Source: Terriglobia bacterium (lineage in GTDB: Bacteria; Acidobacteriota; Terriglobia; Bryobacterales; Bryobacteraceae). From it: DNA of 64,000 nucleotides. Where the stretch lies: assembly GCA_020073265.1 (NCBI GenBank), contig JAIQFN010000028.1, forward strand, positions 1 through 64,000. The letters are read 5' to 3'. Each line of letters begins with the position of its first letter. The stretch's first letter is position 1. The notes under the pieces were generated by a model that was not told the DNA's origin, made no database searches, and saw only the letters and a list, made by a program, of their open reading frames with translations. A program made the translations under genes and the position numbers. Shown in pieces: positions 3,010-53,730 of the stretch.

Positions 3010-5301
3010 TCACCGCGGCGGGGCGGCAACTTCGTACACCTGAACCTCCCTGCGCGCGGCGGGACCGAATCCGGCCGACGCGCTGCTTGACGAAAATACC
3101 GGCCGGAATCGCTGCAACGCTTCCATGGGCACGCAACTGATCAAGGGATCATCGCCTACCAACACGCATCCGTCGTCCCGGCAAGCGGTCTCAGCCGTGA
3201 GCGCCTCCTGTGCCGACTGGAATCGCCTGGTTCCGACCACGTCCGGATCGCTTCGCCCGTCCGACGCCTTGCGGAGCCAGAGAATCACCGCGCCGCCTCG
3301 CCCAGCCACCGACTGGCCGCCGAACGCAAATAGCCGGACCACCATACTGCGATAGTACGCCGGCCGGTAGAACGCGGCGGCTCTGCGTTGGCCCTTGGCA
3401 TCGGTTTGGTACGCCACCAGGATGTATTCGTCGCGGCGGTGGCGCCGGGAGTATTCGAAGAATGAAGGATACTCTCCGACGAGCAGCTCTTTCGAAGACG
3501 GCCACAACGGGAGGCTTTCATTCACCACTACGTAGCGCGTGCGCCAGGTGCGCAACAAGGGGATCGCCTCGGCCTCCGATTGCGCCAGGAAAAAATCGGC
3601 AGCGACGGACGCGTTGGCTTGAGTCGGGTTCGTCACTGGGATTCGTCTTCCCACGTTCACAAGCCAATAACCGAAGTCCCACCACGCCATCACGCTGTAG
3701 GCAGACGGAGGATACTGATAAGCCGGCCCGTAGTCCGGCCGGCGGTAGCGATGGTAGTAGAAATCGGGATCTCCGAAGGGTTCGGGAGTGGATGTGCGCA
3801 TCCAATCCAAGGTTTCCTTCCAGTCCGCGGAGATTCCGTTCGGCTCGTCGGCGTTCGCCGCGGCATACAGGTTGGGGCCGAATACCAGCAATACCAAGGA
3901 CGCGCCGGTCACCCAGGCAGTCTTGCGTCCGGAGGCGAACAGGCTGGCCGCTGCGTAGCCGGATAACAGGGCCACGGCGGTCGCAAAGTAGTACGTCATC
4001 CGGAGCTGGCCCAGCGCCATAACACCGGTGATGAGCCCCCAGAAAAAGATCAGCGAACGGCCGGCTTTGGCGTGCTTGAAGGTGGACTCACCCAGCCAGA
4101 GCAACCCCAACAGCGCGAAGAAGAAGGCGCCATAGAACTGGAGCACAACCGGCATGAACGTGAAGTGACCTTGCTCATACAGCAGGGATTGCAGCTCGTT
4201 GATCCCGCCCGACGTCCCAAACAACGCGGGCGCGATTCGCGCGGCGAAGCTCTTCGCCAGATGACGCCAGCTTGAAATGAACAATAGCGCGGGAATCAGA
4301 GATAACAATCCCGCGGCCGCCAGTCCGCCGAGCAACCACCGGCGCGGGCGTTCAAACCGGCTGCACCAGCTCGTCCACAATTCCAAAGCGGCGATCGCGA
4401 GACCACCCAGCCCGAGCGCGGCGATCGAGTAATTCATCCACAGCAGGTTATGGAATGCCAGGCAAAAGCCGAGGGCAACCAGGAAGACGAGGTACAGCGG
4501 CTGAAACGATGGAGCGGGGTCGTCCCGAGGCCACCACGAACGGAGCCGGTCGTAAACGGCCCAGATCAAGACGAAACCCACCAGGAATACGGCGCCGTGA
4601 AAGGTGAGCAGGTAGGCGGCCAGCGTCAGTCCCGCAACCAATGCCCGCCCGAGCGAACGCGGCCGCTCGAAGGCACGCAACAGCAGCCAAAGGAACAGCG
4701 TCGCAAGCAGGCTCTCCATGATGTGATGGTCCGTGAATCCCAAGCTCGAAACGCGCAGGAAATGCCCTGGCAACGTCGCGATTACGGCGGCTGCCAGCAG
4801 CGCCGGGCGCGGACCAAACACGAGCTTTCCCAAAACGAATACGGCCACGACGGTGAACACGGCCAAGACCGCGGGATACCAGGCTGCGATCACGTGCAGG
4901 AGCGACTCCGATGGTGCCCCCCCGCCCGCCAACCAGGCGATCAAGCCGAGCAGCCAATCATAAAAGGGCGCGGTGGCGGTGTCTTGCACGCGTCCAAAAG
5001 CGACGTAGGGATCCACCATGATGCGCCACGGGAAATGCCGCACCAGGTTCTCGGCGACGCGGATGTGGTACCACGCATCGCCTTCCTGGAAATTTACGAA
5101 GCCCGTCTGGAACACCAGATCGAAGCGCGGAACGACACGGATCCACAGCGCCAGCCCACAGAGCGCGGCCACGGCGATCCACTGCCACCGCTCCAGGAAC
5201 GCTGCCAGCGCTCCAGGACGGTCTTGCTCGGGCAGCGGCTCGGGCTGCATCTGGATCGTGCTCATTTCGGTTTTCCGGCGCGCATTTCGGGAATCGATCA
5301 T
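3010..5301 (-). CDS. STT3/AglB-like oligosaccharyltransferase
   Basis: 763 residues, or 751 from the second ATG at 5265. A hydrophobic N-terminal two thirds with about 12-13 membrane segments is followed by a soluble C-terminal domain. The first luminal loop has EGDAWYHIRVAENL (D75), matching the first acidic motif of STT3 proteins. A later loop has FTDHHIMES (190-197), like the DHH acidic motif of archaeal AglB. The soluble domain has VMAWWDFGYWL, the signature WWDYG motif (W540-G544, Tyr replaced by Phe), followed by RIPVTNPTQANASVAADFF as in AglB. The family transfers lipid-linked glycans to Asn in N-X-S/T sequons on the periplasmic face. It diverges from a PglK-like flippase gene 39 bp away, and ALG-like glycosyltransferases follow, which strengthens the call. 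Substrate and sequon are unknown. Confidence 0.85.
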   Translation of the reverse strand: MIDSRNARRKTEMSTIQMQPEPLPEQDRPGALAAFLERWQWIAVAALCGLALWIRVVPRFDLVFQTGFVNFQEGDAWYHIRVAENLVRHFPWRIMVDPYVAFGRVQDTATAPFYDWLLGLIAWLAGGGAPSESLLHVIAAWYPAVLAVFTVVAVFVLGKLVFGPRPALLAAAVIATLPGHFLRVSSLGFTDHHIMESLLATLFLWLLLRAFERPRSLGRALVAGLTLAAYLLTFHGAVFLVGFVLIWAVYDRLRSWWPRDDPAPSFQPLYLVFLVALGFCLAFHNLLWMNYSIAALGLGGLAIAALELWTSWCSRFERPRRWLLGGLAAAGLLSLIPALLFISSWRHLAKSFAARIAPALFGTSGGINELQSLLYEQGHFTFMPVVLQFYGAFFFALLGLLWLGESTFKHAKAGRSLIFFWGLITGVMALGQLRMTYYFATAVALLSGYAAASLFASGRKTAWVTGASLVLLVFGPNLYAAANADEPNGISADWKETLDWMRTSTPEPFGDPDFYYHRYRRPDYGPAYQYPPSAYSVMAWWDFGYWLVNVGRRIPVTNPTQANASVAADFFLAQSEAEAIPLLRTWRTRYVVVNESLPLWPSSKELLVGEYPSFFEYSRRHRRDEYILVAYQTDAKGQRRAAAFYRPAYYRSMVVRLFAFGGQSVAGRGGAVILWLRKASDGRSDPDVVGTRRFQSAQEALTAETACRDDGCVLVGDDPLISCVPMEALQRFRPVFSSSSASAGFGPAARREVQVYEVAAPPR

Positions 5302-5340
5302 TATTGTATACGGCGGGGCCAGCTAAAATCAGGATTTGCC

Positions 5341-7188
5341 ATGCGCGAAATCGTAACCACCGTCCGGCAAGCCATGTCTCTGCTGAGCAGGGACCTGCGC
5401 CGGCGATGGTGGCTGCAAGCGCCCTGGGCTCTGTTTTCAGCCTTGCTGGAGATGATTGCGACGGCCGCGATGCTGCTCCTGATCCGTCTGATCACCGATC
5501 CCGCCGGGGTCGAGCGCATGGCTTCCATGGAAATACTCCGCCGATGGCTCGGCTTCCCACCGGGGCCGGGCTTCAACGCGGCATTCGGCGTTCTGGTAGG
5601 CGTGCTTTTCCTGGTGAAAAACAGTTTGCGAGTGGCGGAGAACTACGCCCAGGAGCGATGTGCCGCGGCGACGGCGGTGTGGATCTCTTCCGGACTGCTG
5701 GAGCGATATTTGCGGGCGCCGTACAGCCTGCATCTGCGGCGCAATTCGTCCGAGATGCTCAGCAACGTCAGCGGTGCCGCCGACCAGGTGAGCTGGGTCG
5801 TCCTGGAGTCCGCCACGGCATTGATTTCCGAGTCGCTGGTCGCTCTGGGAATTTTGACGGTGCTGGTGGATCAACTTCCGCCGCTGGCGCGCGGCGCGGC
5901 GGCGCTGACTGCCGGAGTCACCATCCTGTTGCTTTGGATCACCCAGCATCGGCATATACGTTGGGGTCGATTGCTGCACAGCGCGGCGATTCAAAGATTG
6001 CAGAACCTGCGGCAAAGCCTGGCGGCGGCGAAGGAAGCCAAGATCCTGGGGCGCGAGCGATACTTTGTGACGAGGTTCGCCCGGATTCGCGCGGCGCTCG
6101 GCGACATCGAAGTGGTGCAACACACTACCGAAATCATTCCGCGCCTGGTGGTGGAGACCACCTTCGTGGTGGCGCTGGCGGCGTTGATCGTGATCGCCTG
6201 GTTGAGATCCAACGCCGGGGGCGACCTGATGCTCACGCTCGGCATTTTCGCTTACGGCGGTCTCCGATTGCTGCCCTCGCTGCATCTGGTGGTCTATCGA
6301 TTCAACCGGGTCGGCTCCGGAGCAGCCGCCGTCAAAATCGTCTCCCGGGACTGGCAGGAACTTGCGCCCTTCGTCTCCGCCAGCGAGGAAGCCATCGCCC
6401 CGATGAAGGTGACCGCCACGATCAGCCTGGAGGCGGTCTCGTTCTCTTACGAAGAATCACACAGCGGCCCGGACGAAGCCGCTTTGAGCGACGTCGACCT
6501 GGCCATTCGCGTCGGTGAGTCCATCGGCATCGTCGGCCCTACCGGTTCCGGCAAGACCACTTTGGTCGACCTGATACTAGGAATTCTAGAGCCTACCTCG
6601 GGGGCGGTTCGCGTGGATGGCCGGGACATCCGCCTGTCACTGAGGTCCTGGCATCAGCAGATCGGTTACGTTCCTCAAGCCGTGTACCTGATCGACGACA
6701 CCATCCGCCGCAATATCGCTTTGGGCCTGGAGGACGCCGAGATCGACGAAGAACGCGTGCTCGAGTCCGCGCGCGCCGCCCAGCTCGACGGCTTCCTGCG
6801 CGAGTTAGCAGACGGGCTGAATACGGTGGTGGGGGAACGCGGGGTGAAGCTTTCGGGAGGAGAGCGGCAGCGCATCGCGGTGGCGCGGGCTCTCTACCGG
6901 AGACCGTCTGTTCTGGTCTTCGACGAAGCCACTTCGGCGCTGGATAACGTAACCGAGCAGGCGCTCACCGCCACCATCCAGGCTCTGCCAGGCAAGACCA
7001 CCAAAATCTTCATCGCGCACCGGCTGAGCACGGTGCAGTCCTGCGACCGGCTGGTATTTCTGCGCAAGGGCCGAATTTCCGGCGTGGGAACCTACGCGGA
7101 GTTGCAGAGGAATCCGGAGTTTCTTGCGCTGAGCCTGGCGGGCGATGTCGAAAGCCGCAGCCTCCCGGCGCTTCAGGAACCACTGTGA
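5341..7188 (+). CDS. PglK/MsbA-type ABC transporter (probable lipid-linked glycan flippase)
   Basis: A 615-residue half-transporter, with six membrane segments in about residues 15-330 fused to an ATPase domain. Walker A is GPTGSGKTT (399-407), the signature is LSGGERQRIAVARAL (from 504), and Walker B is VLVFDEATSAL (D528, E529), followed by the H-loop FIAHRLSTV. The length and fold are those of MsbA and of PglK, which flips undecaprenyl-PP-oligosaccharide in Campylobacter. The ATG at 5341 is chosen because the open frame upstream is antisense to the STT3 gene; AGGA lies just before it. Starting back to back with an oligosaccharyltransferase and lying beside three glycosyltransferases, it most likely flips the lipid-linked glycan used by STT3. 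A general lipid or drug exporter cannot be excluded from sequence. Confidence 0.85.
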   Translation: MREIVTTVRQAMSLLSRDLRRRWWLQAPWALFSALLEMIATAAMLLLIRLITDPAGVERMASMEILRRWLGFPPGPGFNAAFGVLVGVLFLVKNSLRVAENYAQERCAAATAVWISSGLLERYLRAPYSLHLRRNSSEMLSNVSGAADQVSWVVLESATALISESLVALGILTVLVDQLPPLARGAAALTAGVTILLLWITQHRHIRWGRLLHSAAIQRLQNLRQSLAAAKEAKILGRERYFVTRFARIRAALGDIEVVQHTTEIIPRLVVETTFVVALAALIVIAWLRSNAGGDLMLTLGIFAYGGLRLLPSLHLVVYRFNRVGSGAAAVKIVSRDWQELAPFVSASEEAIAPMKVTATISLEAVSFSYEESHSGPDEAALSDVDLAIRVGESIGIVGPTGSGKTTLVDLILGILEPTSGAVRVDGRDIRLSLRSWHQQIGYVPQAVYLIDDTIRRNIALGLEDAEIDEERVLESARAAQLDGFLRELADGLNTVVGERGVKLSGGERQRIAVARALYRRPSVLVFDEATSALDNVTEQALTATIQALPGKTTKIFIAHRLSTVQSCDRLVFLRKGRISGVGTYAELQRNPEFLALSLAGDVESRSLPALQEPL

Positions 7189-7201
7189 GCGATGGTTCGC
7201 G

Positions 7202-8467
7202 TCAGGCGGAGCGGAGAACACGGTGAAACACCGGCGCTGCTTCGCGTTGCCAGACCTGTTGCCAGGTTTCCGTGCAGGCGGCCTGGATGTTGCACTGCAT
7301 TTGCGCCAGGAGTTGCAAGTCGTCCGGGAAACCCGCCAACAGCTGGTCGATGCGGCAGGCTAGTTCCTGGCTGGTTCGAAACGTTAGCGCCGTCACGCCC
7401 GGCTGGATTTGTTCGGTCAGGCACTCGCCATAGTCCAAAACGCAGGCCGGCGTCCGGGCGCCAAACAGATCCATCAACTTCATGGGCAGGTCCACGCCTG
7501 ACGTCGAGCGGTGCAGGCAGAATCCAAAGTGCGCCGCGCAGAGTAGCTCGCGATAATCGGCCGGATCGAGGAAAGCGGTCCGCAGCGTCAGGCGCCGCCA
7601 GCAGAGGCCGGAGATCCGCTGTTCGAACGCCTCCCGCAACGGACCGCGGCCGGTAATCACGACGCACAATCGCGGTAGCGGCGATGGCGCGCCCTGCGAG
7701 TCCCAGCGCTGCAATCCCTCCAGCAACAGATCCATGTCTTCGTCGGCCGACCAACTGGTGGGACAGACCGCCAACGCAGCGTCTTGGGGAAGAACAAAAC
7801 CTGCGCGGCTGAGGACCCGGTGAGCCGCCGCGCTGCGCGCAGTCATGGGCAGGAGCGGCAACAGTTCCCGGGGTCTGTCAGGCAGCACGACAGCCGCGGG
7901 CAGTCCGAACTCGCGAGTCAGAACATCGCGCATGGCGGCGGAAACGCACAGATGGGCGTCCGCCTGGCTCCCCAACCAGCGCTCACATGCTTTGGCCAGC
8001 CGCACCATGAAATGTGCCGGACCCAGACGCAGCGCCAGCATCGCATATCCGAAGTTATGCCAGTCCACGATGAACAAGGATCGGCGGGCACGCGCCGCCA
8101 GCCAGCCGGCCAGCAGAGTAGGAAAGCTGGGCGGATTCTGCACCAGCACAACATCGGCGCGCGGCGTTCGCGCCAACAGCAGCCAGAACGATTCCAAGCC
8201 GAGGAAGGCCGCGCGCCACGCGCTGAAGAGGAGAAACAGAATCCGCGACCGCCCCTCGCGCGCGCGATCTAGCGAGCGGACCCGGTGCAGACGGATCCGT
8301 GGATGCTCCGCAACCGCGCGATCCACGGGTGTCTCGTGATAGCCAGCCAGCGAGACCGCGGCTCCGTCCTCGGCCAGCGCCCAGGCCTGGTTCAACATCC
8401 GCGGACTCCGGCCCAAATCCCCCAGCACCAGAATTGTCACTCGATAGTGGGGTTGTCGAGCGGCCAT
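7202..8467 (-). CDS. ALG1-like (GT33) mannosyltransferase homologue
   Basis: 421 residues from the ATG at 8467. A longer frame to 8587 exists but would overlap the start of the divergent MurG-like gene. The protein follows eukaryotic ALG1 almost motif by motif: VLGDLGRSPRM near the N-terminus, QNPPSFPTLL, then FIVDWHNFGYAML (about 132-144), LCVSAAM, CPTSWSADEDMDLLLEGL, CVVITGRGPLREAF, and CLHRSTSGVDLPMKLMDLFG (about 317-336). ALG1 adds the first mannose to GlcNAc2-PP-dolichol on the cytoplasmic face. Here the lipid would be undecaprenyl or another polyprenyl. The N-terminal membrane anchor of eukaryotic ALG1 is lacking. Converges with the ABC gene, 13 bp apart, and diverges from the MurG-like gene. 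The donor sugar is inferred, not shown. Confidence 0.8.
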   Translation of the reverse strand: MAARQPHYRVTILVLGDLGRSPRMLNQAWALAEDGAAVSLAGYHETPVDRAVAEHPRIRLHRVRSLDRAREGRSRILFLLFSAWRAAFLGLESFWLLLARTPRADVVLVQNPPSFPTLLAGWLAARARRSLFIVDWHNFGYAMLALRLGPAHFMVRLAKACERWLGSQADAHLCVSAAMRDVLTREFGLPAAVVLPDRPRELLPLLPMTARSAAAHRVLSRAGFVLPQDAALAVCPTSWSADEDMDLLLEGLQRWDSQGAPSPLPRLCVVITGRGPLREAFEQRISGLCWRRLTLRTAFLDPADYRELLCAAHFGFCLHRSTSGVDLPMKLMDLFGARTPACVLDYGECLTEQIQPGVTALTFRTSQELACRIDQLLAGFPDDLQLLAQMQCNIQAACTETWQQVWQREAAPVFHRVLRSA

Positions 8468-8494
8468 GTGCGGGAAAGCATTATCATATCCGGG

Positions 8495-9637
8495 GTGGAC
8501 GTTCAGGACAAGCAACCGCAACGGGACGTCCGCTCGCGGGCCGGGCGAAGAACCGTGGCCGTCGCTGGAGGCGGCACCGCCGGGCATGTCAATTCAGCCT
8601 TGGCTATTATGTCCGCCTACCAGTCGGCCTGCGGTGCGGAAGTGTATTTCATCGGCTGTCAAGGTGGATTCGAGACGCAACTGGTCCCTGCCAGCGGATT
8701 TGACCTGGTGATCATTCCGGGTACCCCTTATGCCCGGCAGAGCGTGCTCGGGAAAATACGGTCGTTGCTGACGCTCGTGCAAGGAACTCTGGCCGCCCGG
8801 CGATTGCTCAAGCGCAAACAGACCAACCTGGTGATCGGCGTGGGTGGATATGCGTCCTTGGGCTCGATCCTGGCCGCTCGTATCCTGGGGATTCCCTGCG
8901 TCATTCATGAGGCCAACGTATTTCCCGGCTTGGCCAACCGGTTGATCGGCTCACTGAGCGCCCGGGTTTTTGTCGGCTGGAGTCAAGCCAGTGCGTTCTT
9001 TTCGAGCTCGAAGACTGTGGTGACCGGCAACCCGGTCCGACCCGTTATCGCCGCCCGAGCCCGCGATCTTCCGGACCAGGAAGCGCCCCCAGGTTACAGG
9101 AGGATTCTGGTAACGGGTGGTTCTCTGGGATCGCCGTTCCTCAACCAGAAAGGTCCGGAGCTGCTGGCGCGCGTCCGCGAGCGGGGGGTTCCCATCGCAG
9201 TCCGTCATCAGAGTGGGGAAGGTGAAGCGGAGCGGCTGAAAGTTGAATATCAGCGGCTGGGAATTCCCGCCCGCGTATCACCATTCATCGACGACATGGC
9301 GGAGGCATATCGCGAAGCCGATTTTGCCATCGCGACCGCGGGGGCGCTGACCCTGGCCGAACTGGCCACTTTCGGTCTGCCGGCTCTGCTGATTCCTCTG
9401 CAAGCGGCGGCCGCGGACCACCAGATGGCCAATGCGAAAGCGTACGCTGAACATGCGGGAACAAGCTGGGTTGAGGAACACAACTGGGATCCCGAGGAGC
9501 TCGCGAAACTGGTTGCGACTACTCTCGCCGATTCCGACGCCCTCAGCGCGCAGGCGCGGCGGCTCCGCGAGATGGCCCGTCCGGACGCTGCCCGCACGCT
9601 GGTGGAGGAATGCGAAGCCTACCTGACCAGCCGGTGA
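8495..9637 (+). CDS. MurG-like GT28 glycosyltransferase (candidate ALG13/14 equivalent)
   Basis: 380 residues from a GTG start. Family GT28 features in order: VAVAGGGTAGHVNSAL (residues 21-36, compare MurG GGTGGH), GVGGYASLGSILAA, IPCVIHEANVFPGLANRL, VTGNPVRPVI, VTGGSLG, and PFIDDMAEAYREADFAIATA followed by ELATFGLPALLIPL and DHQMANA. MurG adds GlcNAc to lipid I. A stand-alone copy far from any cell-wall genes and starting 27 bp from an ALG1-like gene suggests another acceptor. In eukaryotes the MurG-related pair ALG13/ALG14 adds the second GlcNAc just before ALG1 acts. The ordinary murG would have to exist elsewhere in the genome; if not, this gene could be murG itself. The start is weakly defined because no clear ribosome site precedes it. 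Confidence 0.8.
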   Translation: MDVQDKQPQRDVRSRAGRRTVAVAGGGTAGHVNSALAIMSAYQSACGAEVYFIGCQGGFETQLVPASGFDLVIIPGTPYARQSVLGKIRSLLTLVQGTLAARRLLKRKQTNLVIGVGGYASLGSILAARILGIPCVIHEANVFPGLANRLIGSLSARVFVGWSQASAFFSSSKTVVTGNPVRPVIAARARDLPDQEAPPGYRRILVTGGSLGSPFLNQKGPELLARVRERGVPIAVRHQSGEGEAERLKVEYQRLGIPARVSPFIDDMAEAYREADFAIATAGALTLAELATFGLPALLIPLQAAAADHQMANAKAYAEHAGTSWVEEHNWDPEELAKLVATTLADSDALSAQARRLREMARPDAARTLVEECEAYLTSR

Positions 9638-9644
9638 AGCGGTC

Positions 9645-10814
9645 CTAGGCGCGCGCGGCAGGATCCTGAGCGAACCGCGTTACGATTTCGTGCACTGACT
9701 CGCAGAACCTGTCTGTCGAGAACACATTCCTCCGTTCGGCCACCTGACTTCGCAGCTCCCGTTCCAGAGCCTGGTCTTCGAGGACGCGCACAATTTTTTC
9801 CACGGCATCCGCTACCCCATCGAACGCGAGGCGCGGATCTTTCCCGACGATTTCCACGGGTCCGCCGGAATTGTGCACGAATAGAATGCATCCGGCGCGC
9901 TGCAGTTCGGCCGGCGCGATCCCAAAATGCTCGTCCTGCATGGCGTGAATCCCGTACCGGTGGGCGGCCAGTTCCGCCAGCAGAGTGGTGCGATCCAGGT
10001 CAAATAGCAGACGGAACCAGGGCCGGCTGGCGGCCAGCTCCTGCAGCCTGGCGGCGTACGCGGCGTCGTCGACGTGCCCAATCAATGTCAGCGCCAGGTC
10101 ATGCCCGCGCCGGCGAACCGATTCCACTATTTCCATAGCCATGTCCCAACGCTTGATGGGAGCGACGCGCCCAACCGCCGCCATGGCCGGTTGTCTCTGC
10201 TCCCAGGGCATGTCCGCAAACGTTCCGGGAATTGGAGGATAGACCACGACAGGATCGTTTCCGTAAGTCTTGCGGAGGCGGTCCGCTACGAACTGGGAAT
10301 TCGCGATGGTAAGATTTCTCTTCAGGCCCTCCTTGGTGGCGCGCGCGTAAGCATTGCAGAAGGCGCGATAGCTAAAGAGCATCCCCGGGAGTTGGTGATA
10401 CCACCGCATTTCGCTGTCTGGCCGCGGCATGAAGAGCCATGGATAGTGAACATACTGAATTCCACGGCGATGAAAATCCATTTCATTGCTGGTGCTGAAC
10501 AGGACGTCGTAGTCCTCGCTTTCGTCCAGTTCTTGCGCCCAGCGCATGGTTAGGCAAAGCTCCAGCAACGCGCCGCTGGTGGGAATCCATCGCATGCGGC
10601 GCAGATGCCGCTCCGGAGCGATGCGGACCTCAAAATCTCCCTGGCTGAGGCTAGTGCCGAAGCTCCGATTCACGGCCCGATGGTCTACCGGCTCGATGGT
10701 AGCCAGAGTAACTTCGAAATCACTCCGCAGGGTTTGCAAAACCCACGCCGCTACTGCGTTGCCCCCGCCAACCGGCCGCACGCGCGGATGTGAAATGAGG
10801 ACCCGCTTACGCAT
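9645..10814 (-). CDS. ALG11-like GT4 glycosyltransferase
   Basis: 389 residues with a GT4 (GT-B) fold. The N-terminus has LISHPRVRPVGGGNAVAAW. The middle has IQYVHYPWLFMPRP and then NLTIANSQFVADRL and VVVYPPIPG. The C-terminal domain has YGIHAMQDEHFGIAPAEL and FVHNSGGPVEIVG (about 300-335). The pairs YVHYP, VYPP, GLHxMxxEHFGIG and HNSGGP occur in this order in eukaryotic ALG11, which adds alpha-1,2-mannoses to the lipid-linked core. Many bacterial GT4 enzymes share parts of this, so ALG11-like describes the pattern and does not prove the reaction. It converges with the MurG-like gene, 7 bp apart. It completes a set of three lipid-linked oligosaccharide type transferases beside STT3 and a flippase. 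Confidence 0.75.
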   Translation of the reverse strand: MRKRVLISHPRVRPVGGGNAVAAWVLQTLRSDFEVTLATIEPVDHRAVNRSFGTSLSQGDFEVRIAPERHLRRMRWIPTSGALLELCLTMRWAQELDESEDYDVLFSTSNEMDFHRRGIQYVHYPWLFMPRPDSEMRWYHQLPGMLFSYRAFCNAYARATKEGLKRNLTIANSQFVADRLRKTYGNDPVVVYPPIPGTFADMPWEQRQPAMAAVGRVAPIKRWDMAMEIVESVRRRGHDLALTLIGHVDDAAYAARLQELAASRPWFRLLFDLDRTTLLAELAAHRYGIHAMQDEHFGIAPAELQRAGCILFVHNSGGPVEIVGKDPRLAFDGVADAVEKIVRVLEDQALERELRSQVAERRNVFSTDRFCESVHEIVTRFAQDPAARA

Positions 10815-13769: not shown

Positions 13770-14993
13770 TTAACATCTGACCGCCTTCAGCAGGTCCGCG
13801 AAGGCTGCGATGTTGCGATTGAGATCGTACTGCTCCAGGACGCGGCGGCGCGCGGACTTGCCCAACCGCAAACGCAACTCGGCGTCATCCATCAGCCGCG
13901 CCAGAGCGGACGCCAGCGCTTCGTCGTTCGACGGCGGCGCCAGAAGGCCATCCACCTCGTTGCGGATCAGCTCGGGAATGCCGGTGATCCAGGTGGCCAC
14001 GCACGGGATCTCCATCGCCATGGCTTCCATCAGGACCACCGGAATCCCCTCGGCGAAGCTGGCCAGCGCGAACACGTCGGCTTGCGCATACAGATCGCGG
14101 ATTCGATCCGCGTTCTGCCGGCCTTCGAAGATCACGTGCGCGTTGAGACCCCGCCGCGCTGCTTCGTTTTCGAGGTTGGTGCGATCCTCGCCGTCGCCCA
14201 CCAGGCGTAGCCGCACCGAACGGCCCGCACGCATCAGCCGATCCAGCGCCGCGATCAGCACGAGCTGGCCTTTCACCGGCGCCAGCCTCCCTACGCAGAT
14301 AATCTCGAACGGCGACGGATTATAGCGGAACGGCCGCGGAGCATAGATCTCCGGATCGACGCCCAGGCGTGCAACCCGAAGCTTGTCCCAATCAGCCGGC
14401 TCGGAAAAGCGCATCAACTGGCTGCGGCCGAATTCGCTGATCGCGCACACCAGGTCGAAAACCCGGATCTTTTGCCGCAGATGAAACCCCTCGGGATCGA
14501 TGAATTCATCCGAGCCGTGAATGGTCGCCGAAGTTCGCATCGGCGCGACGCGGCGCGCGAGCAGTCCCACGGTGGTGCTGAAGTGCATATGCACCTGTGA
14601 GAGGCGCTGCCGCCACATCCAATCCGCGAACACTACCGCTTCGGCGAAATACAGCAGGTTCTTGATCTCGAATCCCAGGTGCGCGGCGTAGGCCAGCGCG
14701 CCGGCATACGCAAGCGGACGCCGCAGCAGCGTCCGGAGGTTCGCAGCCAGCGCCGACGCGACTCCCGCGGGCTTGATGTAGAACGTGGCGCGCTGTTCTT
14801 CGCGCTCCTCAGCCGTCAGAAATTCCAAAGGCCGGTCGGCCGCGCGCACCGACGCCACGCGAATATCGAAACCCAAACGCCTGAGGCCCTGAATCTCGCG
14901 CAGGATGAAGGTATGGCTGACCGCCGGATACTGGCTCACCAGGTAGGCGATCTGAACGGGCGCGTCGCTCAGGGAAGTCCGGCCTTCTTCCAA
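13770..14993 (-). CDS. GT4 glycosyltransferase (colanic-acid/EPS type)
   Basis: About 407 residues of GT4 enzyme: IAYLVSQYPAVSHTFILREI at the N-terminus (typical of WcaL-like and EPS transferases), TIHGSDEF near 145, CVGRLAPVKGQLVLIAAL, LRLVGDGEDR, and DVFALASFAEGIPVVLMEAMAMEIPCVAT with the nucleotide-sugar binding E-x7-E. The start is uncertain. No ATG or GTG lies near the natural N-terminus. A TTG at 14993 is used here, while a CTG at 14972 would overlap the TGA of the upstream ubiD-type gene in the arrangement CTGA. Either way the gene overlaps or abuts ubiD and is likely co-translated. Acceptor and sugar are unknown; a role in surface polysaccharide is likely. Confidence 0.85.
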   Translation of the reverse strand: MEEGRTSLSDAPVQIAYLVSQYPAVSHTFILREIQGLRRLGFDIRVASVRAADRPLEFLTAEEREEQRATFYIKPAGVASALAANLRTLLRRPLAYAGALAYAAHLGFEIKNLLYFAEAVVFADWMWRQRLSQVHMHFSTTVGLLARRVAPMRTSATIHGSDEFIDPEGFHLRQKIRVFDLVCAISEFGRSQLMRFSEPADWDKLRVARLGVDPEIYAPRPFRYNPSPFEIICVGRLAPVKGQLVLIAALDRLMRAGRSVRLRLVGDGEDRTNLENEAARRGLNAHVIFEGRQNADRIRDLYAQADVFALASFAEGIPVVLMEAMAMEIPCVATWITGIPELIRNEVDGLLAPPSNDEALASALARLMDDAELRLRLGKSARRRVLEQYDLNRNIAAFADLLKAVRC

Positions 14994-16420
14994 AGCTGCG
15001 CGACGCGCTGCTTTACATCCTCCGGCATGCGGATCACATCCGGCCAGGGACGCACGAATCCTTCTTCTTTCCACTTGCGCGTGGCGTCGATGCCCATCTT
15101 GGAGCCGTAGTTCGGAAGGCGGCTCGAATGGTCCAGCGAATCCACCGGGCCGAGCACGAACTGGATGTCGCGCTCGGGATCGATGTTGTTCAAAGCCTTC
15201 CAGGCGACTTCGCTCACGTTCTGGACGTCCACGTCCTCGTCCACCACCACGATCACCTTGCTGAACATGGCCTGGCCGAGTCCCCAGATGGCGTGCATCA
15301 CCTTGCGCGCGTGCAGCGGGTAGGATTTTCGAATCGAGACCAGGATCAGGTTGTGGAAGATGCCTTCCGCTGGCATCGCGATGTCGCGGATCTCAGGCAA
15401 CTGCAGGCGCATCAGCGGCAGGAAGATGCGTTCGATGGCCTTGCCCATGTAGAAATCCTCCATGGGCGGCGGACCGACGATGGTGGTGGCGTAGATGGGA
15501 TGCTTGCGCTGCGTGATGCAGGTGATGTGAAACACCGGGTAGTCGTCAGCCAGCGAATAGAAGCCGGTGTGATCGCCGAAGGGGCCTTCGCGGCGCTGCT
15601 CGCCGAGTTCGACGTAGCCCTCCAGCACGATTTCGGAATTGGCGGGGACCTCCAGGTCCGACGTTTCGCACTTCACCATTTCCACCGGCTTCGAGCGCAG
15701 GAATCCGGCGATCATCATCTCGTCGAGATCCGGCGGCAGCGGCAGGATGGCCGAGTACATGGTCGCGGGATCGGAACCGATGGCCACCGCGACGTCCATG
15801 CGCGCCTGCTTGCCCTCCTTCAGCAGACGGCGATGATGTTCGGCGCCCTGCTTGTGCGTCTGCCAGTGCATGCCGGTGGTGCGGCCGTCGTACACCTGCA
15901 GCCGGTAGCAGCCGCAGTTGCGCTTGCCGTTGTCGGGATTTTTCGAGAATACCATCGGCAGCGTGATGAACCGGCCGGCGTCATCGGGCCAGCACTTCAG
16001 GATGGGATATTCGTCCAGCGAGAAATTGTCGCGGCGGATCACGTCCTTGCAAGGTCCGCCGGAGACGATCTTGGGAAAGAAGGCGCCCATCTCGGCCAGC
16101 TTGGGCAGCATCTTCAGCTTTCCGAGCAGGCCTTCGGGCATGCGCATTTCCAGATACTCGGAGATGCGCCCGGCCACCTCTTCCACCGACTCCACGTCCA
16201 GCGCGATCTGCATCTTGCGCAGGCTGGCAAAGCTGTTGATGAGCACCGGAATGTTGCTGCCGCGCGGCTTCTCGAACAACAGCGCCGGGCCGCCGCTTTT
16301 CACCGCGCGGTCGGCGAATTCGGTGATTTCGAGCACCGGGTCTACTTCAAAAGGAATGCGCTTCAGTTCCTTGTTCTTTTCGAGCGCGGCGATGAAGTCG
16401 CGCAGGTCGCTGTACGCCAT
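14969..16420 (-). CDS. UbiD family decarboxylase
   Basis: 483 residues, the usual UbiD length. Begins MAYSDLRDFIAALEKNKELKRI and has the family segments KSGGPALLFEKPRGSNIPVL, GPCKDVIRRDNFSLDEYPILKCWPDD, the catalytic-region ANSEIVLEGYVELGEQRREGPFGDHTGFYS (E-x-R-E-GPFGDHTG), and VVVDEDVDVQN. UbiD enzymes use prenylated FMN to remove carboxyl groups from aromatic or alpha,beta-unsaturated acids, for example in ubiquinone or menaquinone (futalosine) synthesis. The partner flavin prenyltransferase UbiX is not in the window. It diverges from fabG over 47 bp and overlaps a glycosyltransferase gene downstream. The exact substrate is not readable from sequence. Confidence 0.9.
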   Translation of the reverse strand: MAYSDLRDFIAALEKNKELKRIPFEVDPVLEITEFADRAVKSGGPALLFEKPRGSNIPVLINSFASLRKMQIALDVESVEEVAGRISEYLEMRMPEGLLGKLKMLPKLAEMGAFFPKIVSGGPCKDVIRRDNFSLDEYPILKCWPDDAGRFITLPMVFSKNPDNGKRNCGCYRLQVYDGRTTGMHWQTHKQGAEHHRRLLKEGKQARMDVAVAIGSDPATMYSAILPLPPDLDEMMIAGFLRSKPVEMVKCETSDLEVPANSEIVLEGYVELGEQRREGPFGDHTGFYSLADDYPVFHITCITQRKHPIYATTIVGPPPMEDFYMGKAIERIFLPLMRLQLPEIRDIAMPAEGIFHNLILVSIRKSYPLHARKVMHAIWGLGQAMFSKVIVVVDEDVDVQNVSEVAWKALNNIDPERDIQFVLGPVDSLDHSSRLPNYGSKMGIDATRKWKEEGFVRPWPDVIRMPEDVKQRVAQLWKKAGLP

Positions 16421-16467
16421 ATCAGATGAGGAATGCCCAGGTTTTACTATGATGGAAATTCAGTCTG

Positions 16468-17202
16468 ATGACAAATCGAACCGCTTTCATCACCGGGGCG
16501 AGCCGGGGAATCGGACGGGCGTGTGCCGTGTCTCTCGCCGAGGCAGGCGCGCGCGTGGCGGTGGCGGCCCGCAGCCTGGATCAGCTCGAGGCGCTGGCCG
16601 GCTGGTTGCGGGACCACGGCCGCGAGGCGTTCGCGGTGGCAATCGACATGTCCAACGCCGATTCCATCAAGGAAGCGCTCGCCAAGACCGCCAAGGATTT
16701 CGGTCACATCGCCATCCTGGTGAACAACGCCGGCATCACCAGGGATGGCCTGGCGATGCGCATGAAGAAGGAAGATTGGGACAGCGTGATCGCCACCAAC
16801 CTGACCGGCGCGTTTCTCGCCATCCAGCACGTGCTGCCGGCCATGATGCGCGAGCGCTGGGGCCGCATCATCAACATTTCATCGGTGGTCGGCGAAATGG
16901 GCAATCCCGGCCAGGCCAACTACGTCGCCTCCAAGGCCGGACTCATCGGGTTGACCAAAGCCATCGCGCAGGAGATGGGCAGCCGCAACATCACCGTCAA
17001 CGCCGTCGCGCCCGGATTCGTCGAGACCGGAATGACGGAAGGCCTGGCGCAGGAACTCAAGGACAACATGCTGGGTCACATCCCGCTCAGGCGTATCGGC
17101 CGGCCGGAAGACGTGGCCGCGGCCGTACGGTTTCTGGCCAGCGAGGAAGCGAGTTACATCACCGGACACGTGCTGGACGTGAACGGCGGGCTGCATATGT
17201 AG
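16468..17202 (+). CDS. fabG: 3-oxoacyl-ACP reductase (SDR family)
   Basis: 244 residues, the exact size of FabG. Cofactor motif TGASRGIGRA (residues 9-18), NNAG at about 86-89, catalytic Ser in NISSVVGEMG, and YVASKAG with the Tyr-x3-Lys pair (about 150-154). The C-terminal EEASYITGHVLDVNGGLHM is the standard FabG ending. It reduces 3-oxoacyl-ACP with NADPH in fatty acid synthesis. It stands apart from other fab genes here (fabI lies at the far end of the window), so a second FabG-like SDR for another pathway is possible. Convergent with the adenylate-forming gene, 10 bp apart. Confidence 0.9.
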   Translation: MTNRTAFITGASRGIGRACAVSLAEAGARVAVAARSLDQLEALAGWLRDHGREAFAVAIDMSNADSIKEALAKTAKDFGHIAILVNNAGITRDGLAMRMKKEDWDSVIATNLTGAFLAIQHVLPAMMRERWGRIINISSVVGEMGNPGQANYVASKAGLIGLTKAIAQEMGSRNITVNAVAPGFVETGMTEGLAQELKDNMLGHIPLRRIGRPEDVAAAVRFLASEEASYITGHVLDVNGGLHM

Positions 17203-17211
17203 TTGGGGCAT

Positions 17212-18558
17212 TCAGTCCCCAGCCAGTTCCGATATCACCGCTTTCACCTTGCCATTGAGTCCTGGCGGAAGCGTTTCCACCCAGTCCACTTCGACCCGGC
17301 CGGCGTTACCGACTTTCGATTCGAGCGCCCGGACCAAGGCGCCCGAAGCCTCCGTGCGATTGACACTGTAATCGCCCACCGCCCGCAACACAAATCGATC
17401 CGGGGCCTGCTGCACGATCTGTATCTGCACAATTCCGGGCACCGCGCGCAGGGGTTCCAGCGCCACCAGGGAGTGCATCACGCGTCCGTCCGCCAGGCGC
17501 AGCAAGTCGTCGCTGCGTCCCCGGATGGCCTCAATCATCGGAAGCGTGCGTCCACAGTCGCAGGCAGCATGGCTTCGTGTGACCACGTCACCGAGCTTGT
17601 AGTTCAAGAGCACCGTTGCCCGATTGGTGAGGTTGGATATCACAATTTGTCCAGTACCGCCCGGTCCCGCGTCCCGGCCTTGCTCATCCACCACCCGCAC
17701 GGCGACGGCATCCAGCGAAAGATGGAACCCGCGCAGCCGTTCGCACTGGAAACCGATCCGCAACGCCTCCACGGACTGATAGGTGGAGCTTACTGGAATG
17801 CCGAATTCCTGCTCGATCAGCCGGCGATCCGCGTCCGCCATGGCGTCGGCAGCATAAACAATCACCTTGGGGTGATGAATCCGGATCTTGCGCTGGTACG
17901 CCTCGCGGAAAAGCGCGCCCAGATAGGACCCATAACCGCGGATGACGTCCGGACGAAACTCGTTGATGGCTGCAACGGTTTCGGCAAACGGAAGATCCCC
18001 CGGAGATAGGAATTGCCGTGCCAGGTCGACTGCGGGAGGAGTCCACGAGTAGCTTTCATAGAAATGCCGGATTTGAAACGCGACGGAGCCAGGACGCACG
18101 ACGTGCATCTCGCGGTAGCCGAAGACGCTTCCGGTAAATGCGGACAAAACCAACCGCTGCCGGTGGCCGTTCGCCAGCGCCTCAAAGAGGGCCCGGGCAT
18201 CGTATCGAATCTGTTTGGATCGCCCCGAGGTGCCGCTGGAATCAAGGACCAGACCGGGCGCGTGCAGCAGGTTCGCCGCCAGAAACAGCTCCGGCTCGCG
18301 CGCGACCTGGAGGCCGTCCAGCATAGGTAGCTCGGCCAGGTCGGCCGCCGTGCGGAAGTCGCGGGGCTTCAGGCCGCGCCGATCCATTTCATCGCGATAA
18401 AAGGGCACGTTCCGATAAGCGTGAGCAATGATCGTACGAACCCGCTGAGCCTGAAGCGCCAAGATCTGGGAAAGAGGCCGATAGGGAAGCCTGCGTTCCG
18501 CGCGGGCATGCCACAATGTAAACGCGTTCCAATAGGTTTTTGCGAGCAGGTTCGGCAT
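17212..18558 (-). CDS. PaaK/CapK-like adenylate-forming enzyme
   Basis: 448 residues. N-terminal RVRTIIAHAYRNVPFYRDEMDRRGL is typical of phenylacetate-CoA ligase-like and CapK proteins. The ATP-binding P-loop is LDSSGTSGRSKQIRYD (about 108-123). YQSVEALRIGFQCE and LNYKLGDVVTR follow, then a Cys-containing segment ACDCGRTLPMIEAIRGRSDD. These enzymes activate a carboxylate as an acyl-AMP. Copies next to ATP-grasp genes and glycosyltransferases are common in exopolysaccharide loci, where their substrate is mostly unknown. The ATP-grasp gene lies 17 bp upstream on the same strand, so the two form an operon. Phenylacetate degradation is unlikely because no other paa genes are present. Confidence 0.85.
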   Translation of the reverse strand: MPNLLAKTYWNAFTLWHARAERRLPYRPLSQILALQAQRVRTIIAHAYRNVPFYRDEMDRRGLKPRDFRTAADLAELPMLDGLQVAREPELFLAANLLHAPGLVLDSSGTSGRSKQIRYDARALFEALANGHRQRLVLSAFTGSVFGYREMHVVRPGSVAFQIRHFYESYSWTPPAVDLARQFLSPGDLPFAETVAAINEFRPDVIRGYGSYLGALFREAYQRKIRIHHPKVIVYAADAMADADRRLIEQEFGIPVSSTYQSVEALRIGFQCERLRGFHLSLDAVAVRVVDEQGRDAGPGGTGQIVISNLTNRATVLLNYKLGDVVTRSHAACDCGRTLPMIEAIRGRSDDLLRLADGRVMHSLVALEPLRAVPGIVQIQIVQQAPDRFVLRAVGDYSVNRTEASGALVRALESKVGNAGRVEVDWVETLPPGLNGKVKAVISELAGD

Positions 18559-18575
18559 CTAAATCGCGCCGCGGC

Positions 18576-19769
18576 CTAGACGGCCTCCCAGGATGTCGCC
18601 CGCTGCGCGGATCGCAGACTCTTTCGCTTGTACAGCCGGCCAGCGGCAAACGCGATTTCAGCAAGATGCGGCAGGGGGTCGGAGAACCACAAGTCGGACT
18701 GTGTACCTCGCGACGGCCCGAAGAATTCCCTGAACGACGGCCATCGATGCCCGCGCCCCAACGTGTCCAGGATGCCGAAGGGCCAGGGCCACCGGTAGCG
18801 GAGCCCGGACTGGTAGCGGAAACACGGTTCCACATCGCCTTCCAGCGCCATCCGGCAGGCCAGCAACGGGAAATTGATCCCAGCCGCGATGGACAATCCC
18901 AGCGTCCCCCAGAAGCGTCCGTTTATTTCCAGCAGACAGGCGCGCTTGGCTTGCCGGTCGACCATGAATTCCACTTGCGCCGGACCATGCCATCGCAGGG
19001 CTCGCAGCAGGGCGACGGCCTGTTCCAGGAGCCACTCCTGCTGGGTCGTTTCTACCAGCGTGCCTACCCCGCCGCTGTTCGGGTGCATGCGCAGGCGTCT
19101 CTGCGTTAGCGCGGCGCGAGGCTCGCCGTGACGGAATAACACGCATACATCGTGCACCTCACCCTGCACATGCTCCTGGACCAGCAGACTACCGTGACCG
19201 AACACCAGGTCCTCGCTCGGACGGGGCGCCGCGAAGCGCCGCAGAAGGTCGGGCGCGTTTTGCGCGATCGACATCCCCACCGCGCCGGCTCCCCGCCGGA
19301 GCTTCACCACGCACGGATAACGTATCTGGGCCGCGAGCGCACGCAATTCGGCCTCGTCCTTCGGGCAGTGCGTTTCCGGCGTCTGCAGCCCGAGCCTCCG
19401 AGCCAGCTTGCCGGTCTCTTCCTTATCCCTTGAAATCTCCAGGGCCTCATAGGCCGGCGTCACCAAACGCGTGAGTGCTTCGAGCGTTGCAGCCCTCTGC
19501 GAGATCGCGACGCAGGCATAGTCTCCCATCGGCAGGAGCACATCGTGAGGAAGGCGCCGGAGCTGGCTGGCCAGTGTTTCTACAAATGCCGCGACTCCTT
19601 TAGCGGGATGAGGATATCGGACACGCCCGTCTCCGAATCGCGAATAGTAGGCTTCGCCCAGGAACCGGTCGCTGCCGACCGTCACGGCCGCCACACCCGC
19701 CAAAGCGCGGACAGCCGCGAGTGTCTTGCGGTCGTCTGGCACGCAGGTGGTGGCTAATAACACACGCAC
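18576..19769 (-). CDS. ATP-grasp ligase, carbamoyl-phosphate-synthase-like
   Basis: 397 residues from a GTG start. Central ATP-grasp fold: YPCVVKLRRGAGAVGMSIA (about 150-168), LVQEHVQGEVHDV, VEFMVDRQAKRACLLEINGRFWGTLGLSIAAGINFPLL with the metal-binding E-x-NGRFWG. The N-terminal part resembles the preATP domain (DVLLPMGDYACVAIS). ATP-grasp enzymes join a carboxylate to an amine or thiol through an acyl phosphate. The gene pairs with the downstream PaaK-like gene, so the two may activate and attach one carboxylic building block, for example to a glycan or peptide. Substrates unknown. Confidence 0.85.
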   Translation of the reverse strand: MRVLLATTCVPDDRKTLAAVRALAGVAAVTVGSDRFLGEAYYSRFGDGRVRYPHPAKGVAAFVETLASQLRRLPHDVLLPMGDYACVAISQRAATLEALTRLVTPAYEALEISRDKEETGKLARRLGLQTPETHCPKDEAELRALAAQIRYPCVVKLRRGAGAVGMSIAQNAPDLLRRFAAPRPSEDLVFGHGSLLVQEHVQGEVHDVCVLFRHGEPRAALTQRRLRMHPNSGGVGTLVETTQQEWLLEQAVALLRALRWHGPAQVEFMVDRQAKRACLLEINGRFWGTLGLSIAAGINFPLLACRMALEGDVEPCFRYQSGLRYRWPWPFGILDTLGRGHRWPSFREFFGPSRGTQSDLWFSDPLPHLAEIAFAAGRLYKRKSLRSAQRATSWEAV

Positions 19770-28449: not shown

Positions 28450-30780
28450 TTACCTATAAATCAAGTACTTCTCTCGCCGTTGGACGAAGACGGCGAGGGA
28501 TTCCTCCATCTTCTGTACCGTAGTCCGTGGATCGGCTCCGCTTTTAGCGGCGGCGATGACCTCGTGATTGCCGATCAGGAAGCGGTTGGCATCCCACGGA
28601 ATCCTCGCAGGATACAGCTTCTCGAGGGCGTAGCCCACTTCCAGGCCCAGGCGGATGCTGTCGAAGGTGGTGCGGTCGGTAATCACAAAACGAACCCCCT
28701 CAATGGGGCGCCCGGCGAAGTTGGAAGAGGACGGCGTAAAGCGGGTGGGGTAGACGCGCACGCCGGGAATATAGCGGCTGTTGAGAAAAGCGGCCAATGG
28801 GCGGCCCTGGATCCAATCCGCGCCGATCTGCTCGAAGGGAGCGTCGGTGCCGCGGCCGACCGAGTAGTTCGTAGAGGCTTCCAGCATGGCGAGTCCGGGA
28901 TACAGCAGCGCGGCGTTGAGGCTGCGCATGTTGGGCGAAGGGTCCACCCAGGCCAGGCCGGTGGAATCGAACCAGTCGCCGCGGTCCCAGCCCTGCATCG
29001 CGACCACGTGCAGATCCAGGCCGAGATGTTGCTCGTCGTTGGCCATGGCGGCCAGCTCGCCCAGCGTCATGCCGTGGCGCACGGGAATTTCGAGGCAGCC
29101 GGTGAAGGATTCCAGATCGCGGTCGAGTAGCGGGCCTTCGACGTGCACGCCGGTGATGGGGTTAGGACGGTCCAGCACGAAGAATGGCACGTTCTTCTTG
29201 GCCGCCTCCTGCATGCTGTAGAGCATGGTGCAGGAGTAGGTGTAGAAGCGCGCTCCTACGTCCTGGATGTCGAACACCAGGGCGTCGATCCCGTTCAGCA
29301 TGGCGGGCGCGATGCGGCGCGAGGAGCCTTCATAAAGGCTGAATACGGGCAAGCCGGTGGCGGGATCTTTGGTGTTGGCGACGTTGGGCTGATCCTGATT
29401 TCCGAGCAGGCCGTGTTCGGGCGAAAACAGGGCCGCGATTTTGACGCCCGCAGCCAGCATCAGATCGATATTGCGCTTTCCGTCGCGGCTGAGTCCGGTT
29501 TGATTGGTGATGAGACCGATGCGTTTTCCTTGCAGCGGGGCGAAGTGGCCGGCGGCGAGAACATCCAGGCCGGTGAGGACCTCGGCCTTCGGCTCCACCA
29601 CCCGATGCAGGCCCGGCCCAGTGATGGTTTCGTTGTATCCGGTGAGTTTCACGCCGGGCGCGGCGATGCCGTAGCCGGCCGCGACGATGGTCGCAATACG
29701 GCTGCGCAGCGAGGTGAGCGATTTCCCGCGATGCGGATGGACCACATTGGTAAGGATGATGATGTAAGTGCGGCTGGTGGGATCGATCCAGAGCGAGGTT
29801 CCGGTGAAGCCGGTGTGGCCGTAGGAGCCGATGGGGAACAGCTCGCCGCGATTGCTGGAGTAGGTGGAATCGATGTCCCAGCCCAGGCCGCGCAGGATGG
29901 GCTGGTCGGCGGGCGAGGCGGGCGAGGTGAATTTCTCGACGGTGGCGGCGCTGAACAGCCGGGTTCCGTTCGATTCGCCGCGGTCGAGCATCATTTGCGC
30001 GAATTTCCCGAGATCCGCGGCGGTGGTGAACAGGCCCGCGTGGCCGGCCACACCGCCCATGTAACGCGAGGTGTCGTCATGCACCGCGCCGCGGAGGGGC
30101 TTGCCGGTGGTTGGATCGATTTCGGTGGGGGCGATCCGAGGAATCAGGGCGGCCGGCGGCTGAAACATGCTGTCGCGCATGCCGAGCGGCTGGAAAATGT
30201 TTTCTTGTGCGAAATTCGAGAGCATTTGTCCGCTTAAACGGTGCACAATTTCACCCAGCAAAATAAAATTGATGTCGCTGTAAACGAACCGAAGGCCGGG
30301 CGGGCGCACGGGTTTGTCAATTAAGGCGCGCTGGATGCCGGTCTGATAGCCGCTCCAGGCGGGTTTCAAGTCCAGGTCGGGCCGGAGTCCGGAGAAGTGC
30401 GTCATCAAGTCGCGGATCTCGATGTCGCTTTTGCCGCCCTGGAACTCCGGCAGATAGCGAGTGACCAGGTCGTCGATCCGGATCTTGCCCTGCTCGAACA
30501 GCTTCATGATGGAGGGCGTGGTGGCGATCACCTTGGTGAGCGAGGCGGCGTCGAAGATGGTGTCGACGGTCATGGGCTCGCGCTGGGGGATGAGCGCGCG
30601 GTGGCCGTAGGCTTTCTGGTAGACCACGGCGCCATCGTGCCCGATCAGGAGCACGGCGCCGGGGATGAGGCCGGACTCGACGGCCTGGTTGAGCTGCTGG
30701 TCTACGGCGGCGGCGCCCGGGAACACTGGTTGCGCGCACAGGGAGGCCGCGCAGGCGAGAAGCAGGACCAGGGTCTTCAT
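28450..30780 (-). CDS. fused beta-lactamase-fold amidase/esterase and NamZ-type exo-muramidase
   Basis: 776 residues. Signal peptide about 1-16. Residues about 20-375 are a class C beta-lactamase-like serine hydrolase: catalytic SLTK (in [14 protein letters not shown]), [13 protein letters not shown] (Tyr motif), and [10 protein letters not shown] in place of the KTG box. Residues about 395-776 are a DUF1343/NamZ domain, with [31 protein letters not shown] and [16 protein letters not shown]-like [14 protein letters not shown]. NamZ is an exo-beta-N-acetylmuramidase; in Bacillus the gene lies with AmiE, a beta-lactamase-fold MurNAc-L-Ala amidase, and NagZ. Here both activities are in one exported chain, suggesting periplasmic peptidoglycan turnover. 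Its ATG overlaps the stop of the pterin dehydratase gene (ATGA). Confidence 0.88.
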
Positions 30781-53533: not shown

Positions 53534-53658
53534 TCTAGACCTTGCTTTCTTCAGGCAAAAGGTCCAAAATGGCAGTGGGTAAGCAACCCTGCCTTGGGCT
53601 TGCCTGAGGCTAGCCCCGCAAGTAGTTGACGCTACAAACGGGGTGAGTTAATTGGGGG

Positions 53659-53725
53659 TGGAGGTGGAAGGAATCGAACCTTCGCCAGAGTGACTTCGCA
53701 GGCCATCCGGCAACCATTCACCCCC
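53659..53725 (-). ncRNA. tRNA-like or tmRNA-end-like fold inside the IS1-type element
   Basis: The minus strand has 5' GGGGGTG pairing with CACCTCC (one G-U), and a perfect T-arm GAAGG-TTCGATT-CCTTC directly before the 3' acceptor strand, then A. The middle is only about 35 bases and does not form a standard D-arm plus anticodon arm. The 3' end CACCTCCAC and the 5' start GGGGGTGAATGGTT resemble the two ends of tmRNA genes more than a normal tRNA. It may be a shortened tRNA/tmRNA mimic or relic. Function unknown. Confidence 0.35.
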
Positions 53726-53730
53726 ACAAA

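Follow-up and report, generated by a model that had tools for sequence, protein, structure and literature searches.

The first 64,000 nucleotides of contig JAIQFN010000028.1 from a Terriglobia bacterium (Acidobacteriota), hereafter the window, contain at 3010-10814 five neighbouring open reading frames (ORFs), confirming the five adjacent genes that an earlier note had read there as a possible bacterial locus for protein N-glycosylation. Each ORF lies on the strand opposite to the previous one (-, +, -, +, -), which gives two divergent pairs and a final gene. The first pair encodes an AglB/STT3-type oligosaccharyltransferase (3010-5301, minus strand, at most 763 amino acids) and an ATP-binding cassette (ABC) half-transporter of the PglK/MsbA type, the proposed flippase of a lipid-linked glycan (5341-7188, plus strand). 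The second pair encodes an Alg1-like (GT33-like) glycosyltransferase modelled with a GT-B fold (7202-8587, minus strand) and a paralogue of MurG from family GT28, proposed to transfer the second sugar (8495-9637, plus strand). The last gene codes for a GT4 glycosyltransferase with a weak likeness to Alg11 (9645-10814, minus strand). The MurG-like ORF overlaps the annotated Alg1-like ORF at the 5' end of the latter, the start of which is uncertain; most of its first ~43 residues have a predicted local distance difference test (pLDDT) score below 50 in the predicted model. The true start of the STT3 protein is probably Met13 (about 5265), because the STT3 protein of a congener begins there.

An AglB-type oligosaccharyltransferase

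The assignment of the first protein to the STT3/AglB family, made in the earlier note from its WWDFG, DHH and GDAWYH motifs, is borne out by family profiles, nearest solved relative, motifs and predicted fold. The protein exceeds the cut-offs of both PF22627 (AglB core; 63.6 bits, cut-off 27) and PF02516 (STT3; 56.7 bits, cut-off 24.5), and a sequence search of solved structures returned AfAglB as its nearest relative (E 8.5e-41). A profile built from 13 cluster STT3s also matches human STT3A (2e-32) and yeast STT3 (7e-18) among solved structures. With the subfamily model TIGR04154 (archaeo_STT3) the window protein scores 392.2 bits, under the curated cut-off of 450, and therefore falls outside that subfamily as defined.

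The available text of PMC8342417 lists as AfAglB motifs Asp47, Asp161 with His163, Glu360 of the TIXE motif, and WWDYG. Their counterparts in the window protein are D75, within GDAWYH (residues 74-79), D191/H193, within DHH (191-193), E369, and WWDFG (540-544); the TIXE stretch reads GINE, in which the Glu and the Ile alone agree. D75, D191/H192/H193, E369 and W541/D542/G544 are invariant among 8 aligned AglB-type members, and the aligned STT3 of locus L044 has TWDKG in place of WWDYG. Structure prediction led to the same relative: the AlphaFold2 model has a middling pLDDT of 71, displays a GT-C fold with a C-terminal globular domain and is closest to AfAglB (Z 38.1 over 588 residues), followed by yeast STT3 (35.6), human STT3A (34.5) and PglB (24.4).

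STT3 types vary among the loci described below, an archaeal AglB_L1 domain occurring at L061 (6461-8824) and a PglB-type core at L031 (3180-8821); the latter locus carries two STT3 genes in tandem. Bacterial AglB-type STT3s were previously described, in the available text of PMC4973528, as transfers from archaea.

The transporter, the glycosyltransferases and a candidate initiating enzyme

The second protein exceeds the cut-offs of PF00005 and PF00664, and its residues 11-579 align to residues 5-560 of PglK in a search of the PDB (E 5.9e-59), in agreement with its earlier description as a PglK-like, flippase-type ABC protein. Many eukaryotic full ABCB transporters outscore PglK against it, and its NCBIfam scores lie below the cut-offs for MsbA (260 bits) and for PglK (NF050066; 228.2 bits, cut-off 1000).

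Pfam places the Alg1-like protein in generic GT4-type domains only. It was compared with yeast sequences, those used for Alg1, Alg2 and Alg11 being uncurated and not taken from a database. With this yeast Alg1 the protein shares 30% identity (200 bits, residues 17-448), a similarity that exceeds that of other GT4 proteins along the full length and upholds the ALG1-like relationship initially proposed. The same queries were run against 3270 locus ORFs and 16 window proteins, with duplicate loci removed and E set at 1e-3 or less. Yeast Alg1 matched 48 entries, each of which belongs to the Alg1 class (best 2e-85), and yeast Alg2 matched 13 Alg2-like ORFs and one long ORF labelled Alg11. Aligned separately, the Alg2-like protein of L031 shares 32% identity with yeast Alg2 (219 bits). 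Yeast Alg11 gave weak matches to 26 Alg11-class and 5 Alg2-like ORFs (best 3e-13). The stretches GDLGRSPRM, QNPP, DWHN and SSGLDLPMK of the Alg1-like protein are strongly kept, with a few variants, in 26 aligned members. Its model (pLDDT 89) has the common GT-B fold; the 50 fold matches listed are common GT-B enzymes with no Alg1 entry among them, and neither the protein nor its profile found a convincing solved relative among PDB sequences.

The fifth protein is a GT4 enzyme, as had been proposed, since it exceeds the cut-off of PF00534, and it shares 38-58% identity with 11 aligned relatives from other Alg1 loci. The ALG11 part of the proposal fared less well: no ALG11-specific Pfam family matched at E 0.01, and the best match obtained with yeast Alg11 is the weak one given above. 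Searched against the PDB, the protein alone matched nothing and its profile matched general GT4 enzymes only.

The MurG-like protein passes the TIGR01133 threshold (261.9 bits, cut-off 250.25), below which some other cluster copies score, and thus belongs to the GT28/MurG family as the earlier note had stated. The note had also counted it in an ALG-like set; what we find is a MurG paralogue. The window genome holds two genes over the TIGR01133 cut-off, the other of which sits amid cell-wall and division genes (names read from translations). A tree was built from 27 cluster copies and 21 sequences meant as canonical, with five duplicate loci excluded. All cluster copies form one clade in it (support 100/99) apart from the cell-wall MurGs; the row L029_canon is actually a cluster copy identical to L029_clus, so the tree counts two label changes. 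Gene context and tree together rule out an ordinary cell-wall MurG at the window locus. Among 42 genomes from named loci, at least two MurG genes were counted in 22 and one in 20, and all 21 genomes having a cluster MurG carry at least two.

The locus had been called possibly complete, a description that is not supported as worded, since no lipid-initiating transferase was found within it. Two PF00953 genes were found in the window genome. One shares a contig with the cell-wall cluster; the other is on the window's own contig, ~62 kb past the locus and outside the window (C113:72911-74398, equivalent to L017:12912-14399). The latter is an open frame and reaches 304 bits against a profile built from phosphotransferases located inside other clusters, making it a candidate initiating enzyme.

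Conservation and linkage of the gene set

Among 61 relatives, a search for Alg1 gave 7 matches, one of which (G028; 8.4e-9) was discarded as a generic GT4 protein: the stretch concerned is matched by the window's other GT4 protein too, and the 297-genome search described below returned no match there. The remaining six are the window genome, three of its four congeners (68-71% identity) and two further genomes, the first from a different family of the same order and the second from elsewhere in the class; no Alg1 match came from the remaining sampled members of the window's family. The STT3-ABC-Alg1-MurG arrangement is the same in the three congeners. In one of them the Alg11-like gene occupies its place next to this set and a second copy exists; in the other two no Alg11-like gene was found within the stretch examined.

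Additional loci were sought in species genomes using two short Alg1 peptide patterns, a scan that may miss distant or archaeal relatives. It yielded 47 loci, or 48 non-redundant ones with the window included and five duplicates set aside (L019, L020, L034, L035 and L036, equal to L013, L012, L011, L014 and L015 respectively, which were excluded from the yeast-query counts, the neighbour tally and the MurG and Alg1 trees). Neighbouring genes were tallied with score thresholds of our own setting over at most ~10 kb, and often less, on each side of Alg1, the window row being taken from its ORF list. On this basis the 48 loci show near Alg1 an ABC gene in 31 cases, a MurG paralogue in 27, STT3 and an Alg11-like gene in 25 each, a phosphotransferase of the Alg7/WecA fold in 18 and an Alg2-like gene in 14. 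At least one other component lies near Alg1 at 43 loci and none at the remaining 5. All six components occur at L049 and L052, both labelled Candidatus Rokuibacteriota, the Alg11-like gene of L049 being in two overlapping pieces.

The loci bear six or more phylum labels: Acidobacteriota, Myxococcota or Deltaproteobacteria, Binatota, Rokuibacteriota, Verrucomicrobiota and Planctomycetota. Three further labels are probably wrong, namely Cyanobacteria (L032), Acidimicrobiia (L041) and Gemmatimonadaceae (L046). In the Alg1 tree these three loci group with Acidobacteriota, joined to them by short branches, and L032 and L041 have the same STT3 positions as genomes placed in the window's phylum. The synteny that the earlier note proposed to look for in related genomes is thus present, the gene set being kept both in congeners and across phylum labels.

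STT3 also co-occurs with Alg1 at the genome level. Alg1 was found in 13 and STT3 in 26 of 297 Acidobacteriota genomes, with both in 7 (Fisher p 2e-5, relatedness ignored); the 6 genomes with Alg1 and without STT3 all belong to a single family (f51). STT3 was likewise found in 34 of the 42 Alg1-bearing genomes from named loci, compared with 19 of the 284 Acidobacteriota genomes that lack Alg1. Five genomes, recognized by matched STT3 coordinates, are shared by the two samples, so the two counts of STT3 depend in part on each other.

A proposed eukaryote-like assembly pathway in bacteria

Gene content, family relationships, catalytic motifs, fold, linkage and STT3 co-occurrence lead us to favour, at a probability of roughly 0.6, a bacterial locus for en bloc protein N-glycosylation in which relatives of the eukaryotic cytosolic ALG enzymes build the lipid-linked glycan. 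Based on the known roles of these families, the enzymes would act in the order phosphotransferase, MurG paralogue, Alg1, Alg2/Alg11, ABC transporter and STT3. A phosphotransferase of the WecA/Alg7 fold, encoded ~62 kb off in this genome and within the cluster elsewhere, would put N-acetylhexosamine 1-phosphate, probably that of N-acetylglucosamine (GlcNAc), on undecaprenyl phosphate. The MurG paralogue would then add a second residue, probably GlcNAc as well, and the Alg1-like enzyme a beta-mannose. Further residues, probably mannose, would come from the Alg11-like GT4 enzyme and, in other genomes, from an Alg2-like one. The ABC half-transporter would flip the resulting lipid-linked glycan, which the AglB/STT3 enzyme may finally move onto the asparagine (Asn) of sequons in exported proteins. 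Such a lipid would suit these families, as Alg13/14, Alg1, Alg2 and Alg11 can act on undecaprenyl diphosphate in engineered Escherichia coli according to the available text of PMC5698433.

Several observations weigh against this interpretation. Given their alternating strands, the five genes are not a single operon. The STT3 proteins show no clear DK or MI motif, which would form the Ser/Thr sequon pocket, the stretch after RYVV being variable in the 8 aligned members. The STT3 search was negative in 8 of the 42 Alg1 genomes (L025, L027, L028, L029, L040, L046, L056 and L059). The Alg1 and Alg2 labels lean on uncurated yeast sequences, and the Alg11 name of the window GT4 protein denotes a weak likeness. 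The second sugar raises a further difficulty, since, once the orphan Alg1 clade described below is set aside, a single MurG was counted in 14 of 36 searched genomes, and the Alg14 family (PF08660) was found in none of 43 genomes, the window genome included; a chitobiose made by MurG is therefore not universal. In the single-MurG genomes the sugar beneath the Alg1 residue would be either a lone GlcNAc or one added by another enzyme, unless a second MurG is missing from incomplete assemblies. Eight of them (L032, L033, L037, L038, L040, L041, L058 and L065) keep the phosphotransferase, Alg1 and Alg11-like genes together, with an ABC gene in 6 and a genomic STT3 in 7.

These single-MurG genomes, in which the acceptor of Alg1 may differ from chitobiose, also speak for a second explanation: the locus would indeed serve N-glycosylation, yet its glycan would not be the mannose-GlcNAc2 core, the Alg1-like and Alg11-like enzymes sharing ancestry with their eukaryotic namesakes and using other sugars or acceptors. 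Sugar specificity shifts often in GT4-type families, which counts for other sugars, as does the weakness of the Alg11 likeness. On the other hand, the full sets at L049 and L052 parallel the eukaryotic cytosolic steps one by one, and several Alg1 stretches are near-invariant across the 26 aligned members. We regard this explanation as unlikely, though it is the most serious competitor.

Still less probable, in our view, is that the product of the glycosyltransferases is a surface polysaccharide or a glycolipid and that the neighbouring STT3 serves another glycan or acceptor. That Alg1 can take another role is suggested by an orphan clade of Acidobacteriota (L021, L025, L027, L028, L056 and L059; support 100/100), which has left the cluster. 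STT3 was not found in 5 of these 6 genomes and L021 has a weak match of 29.6 bits, a pattern that also tells against the N-glycosylation interpretation. Only L021 has another component by Alg1 (Alg2-like), the stretches of L025 and L056 being short on one side, and the Alg1 neighbours at L021, L027, L028 and L059 resemble molybdenum-hydroxylase-type and aldehyde dehydrogenase genes (read from translations). Conversely, STT3 occurs in 19 of the 284 Acidobacteriota genomes without Alg1, and a further GT4 gene lies close to the window locus (13770-15074). Against a surface glycan stands the presence of STT3 near Alg1 at 25 of 48 loci and in 34 of 42 Alg1 genomes, and no polymerase or ligase gene was noticed in the loci, where no search was aimed at them. 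Lastly, eukaryotic DNA contaminating a bacterial assembly could be imagined because each of the 47 named records is an assembly of metagenome type (46 titles start with 'MAG:' and one reads 'uncultured bacterium'), but is rejected in view of the intronless genes, the bacterial genes next to them and the tRNA genes on the same 78.6 kb contig, the 98.18% completeness of the genome, the recurrence of the arrangement in separate genomes and an STT3 nearest to archaeal AglB rather than to eukaryotic STT3.

Four known systems come closest to the locus. Like the eukaryotic endoplasmic reticulum pathway for lipid-linked oligosaccharides, the bacterial loci link relatives of Alg1, Alg2, STT3 and, weakly, Alg11 with a transferase of the Alg7 fold. 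Unlike that pathway, they carry in place of Alg13/14 a MurG paralogue in fused form; their proposed flippase is an ABC half-transporter, their STT3 has a single subunit, and the window locus lacks Alg2-like and Alg7-like genes. The Campylobacter pgl system (PglB, PglK) likewise pairs an STT3-fold transferase with a PglK-type ABC half-transporter in a bacterium. It differs in that the STT3 of the window is closer in fold to AfAglB than to PglB and stands beside Alg1-like transferases, although a PglB-type STT3 core does occur at some other loci such as L031. With archaeal N-glycosylation the locus shares the AglB-type transferase. In Sulfolobus, the available text of PMC8993221 attributes the chitobiose core to the Alg7-like AglH and the Alg13/14-like Agl24, the latter a GT115 enzyme distant from MurG and hence unlike the window paralogue. 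A further parallel is an engineered E. coli making Man3GlcNAc2, where Alg13/14, Alg1 and Alg2 act on Und-PP-GlcNAc (PMC5698433, available text); that system is synthetic and built from heterologous eukaryotic enzymes, while the cluster genes are native.

En bloc N-glycosylation by STT3 is known; the novelty would lie in a eukaryote-like set of assembly enzymes in bacteria. Lombard (2016) considered that the prokaryotic relatives of Alg1 could not be determined and suggested a eukaryotic innovation (PMC4973528, available text), and the available portions of PMC8993221 and PMC10307638 name no prokaryotic relative of Alg1. Our literature search found neither a bacterial Alg1 nor a cluster of this kind described, most subscription journals and preprints being outside its coverage. 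With a bacterial Alg1 family located next to an oligosaccharyltransferase, and at some loci also near Alg2-like, Alg11-like and Alg7-fold genes, phylogeny and biochemistry can test where Alg1 came from. Were the glycan of the mannose-GlcNAc2 type, bacteria would possess as a native pathway what glycoengineers assembled in E. coli from eukaryotic parts. A more far-reaching scenario is rather unlikely at present. In it, several bacterial phyla would natively build a core of eukaryote type on undecaprenyl diphosphate, reaching Man3-5GlcNAc2 where the clusters are fullest, and would transfer this core to Asn residues of exported proteins. The bacterial family would then supply the prokaryotic relatives so far missing for eukaryotic Alg1, and perhaps for Alg2, and might be their source; eukaryotes would have drawn for their N-glycosylation pathway on both a bacterial cluster and archaeal genes.

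The genome that hosts the window measures 6.4 Mb, with an estimated contamination of 3.34%, and the guanine-plus-cytosine (GC) content is 62-63% across the first 16 kb of the window. The additional GT4 gene near the locus, recognized with Pfam, is accompanied by an ATP-grasp gene within 13770-19769. Elsewhere in the window, a gene at 28450-30780 (minus strand) encodes a protein that fuses NamZ exo-N-acetylmuramidase domains with a domain of the beta-lactamase fold, and between 52001 and 56000 the GC content falls to 55.8% around a tRNA-Arg gene (53656-53726), possibly marking a mobile element.

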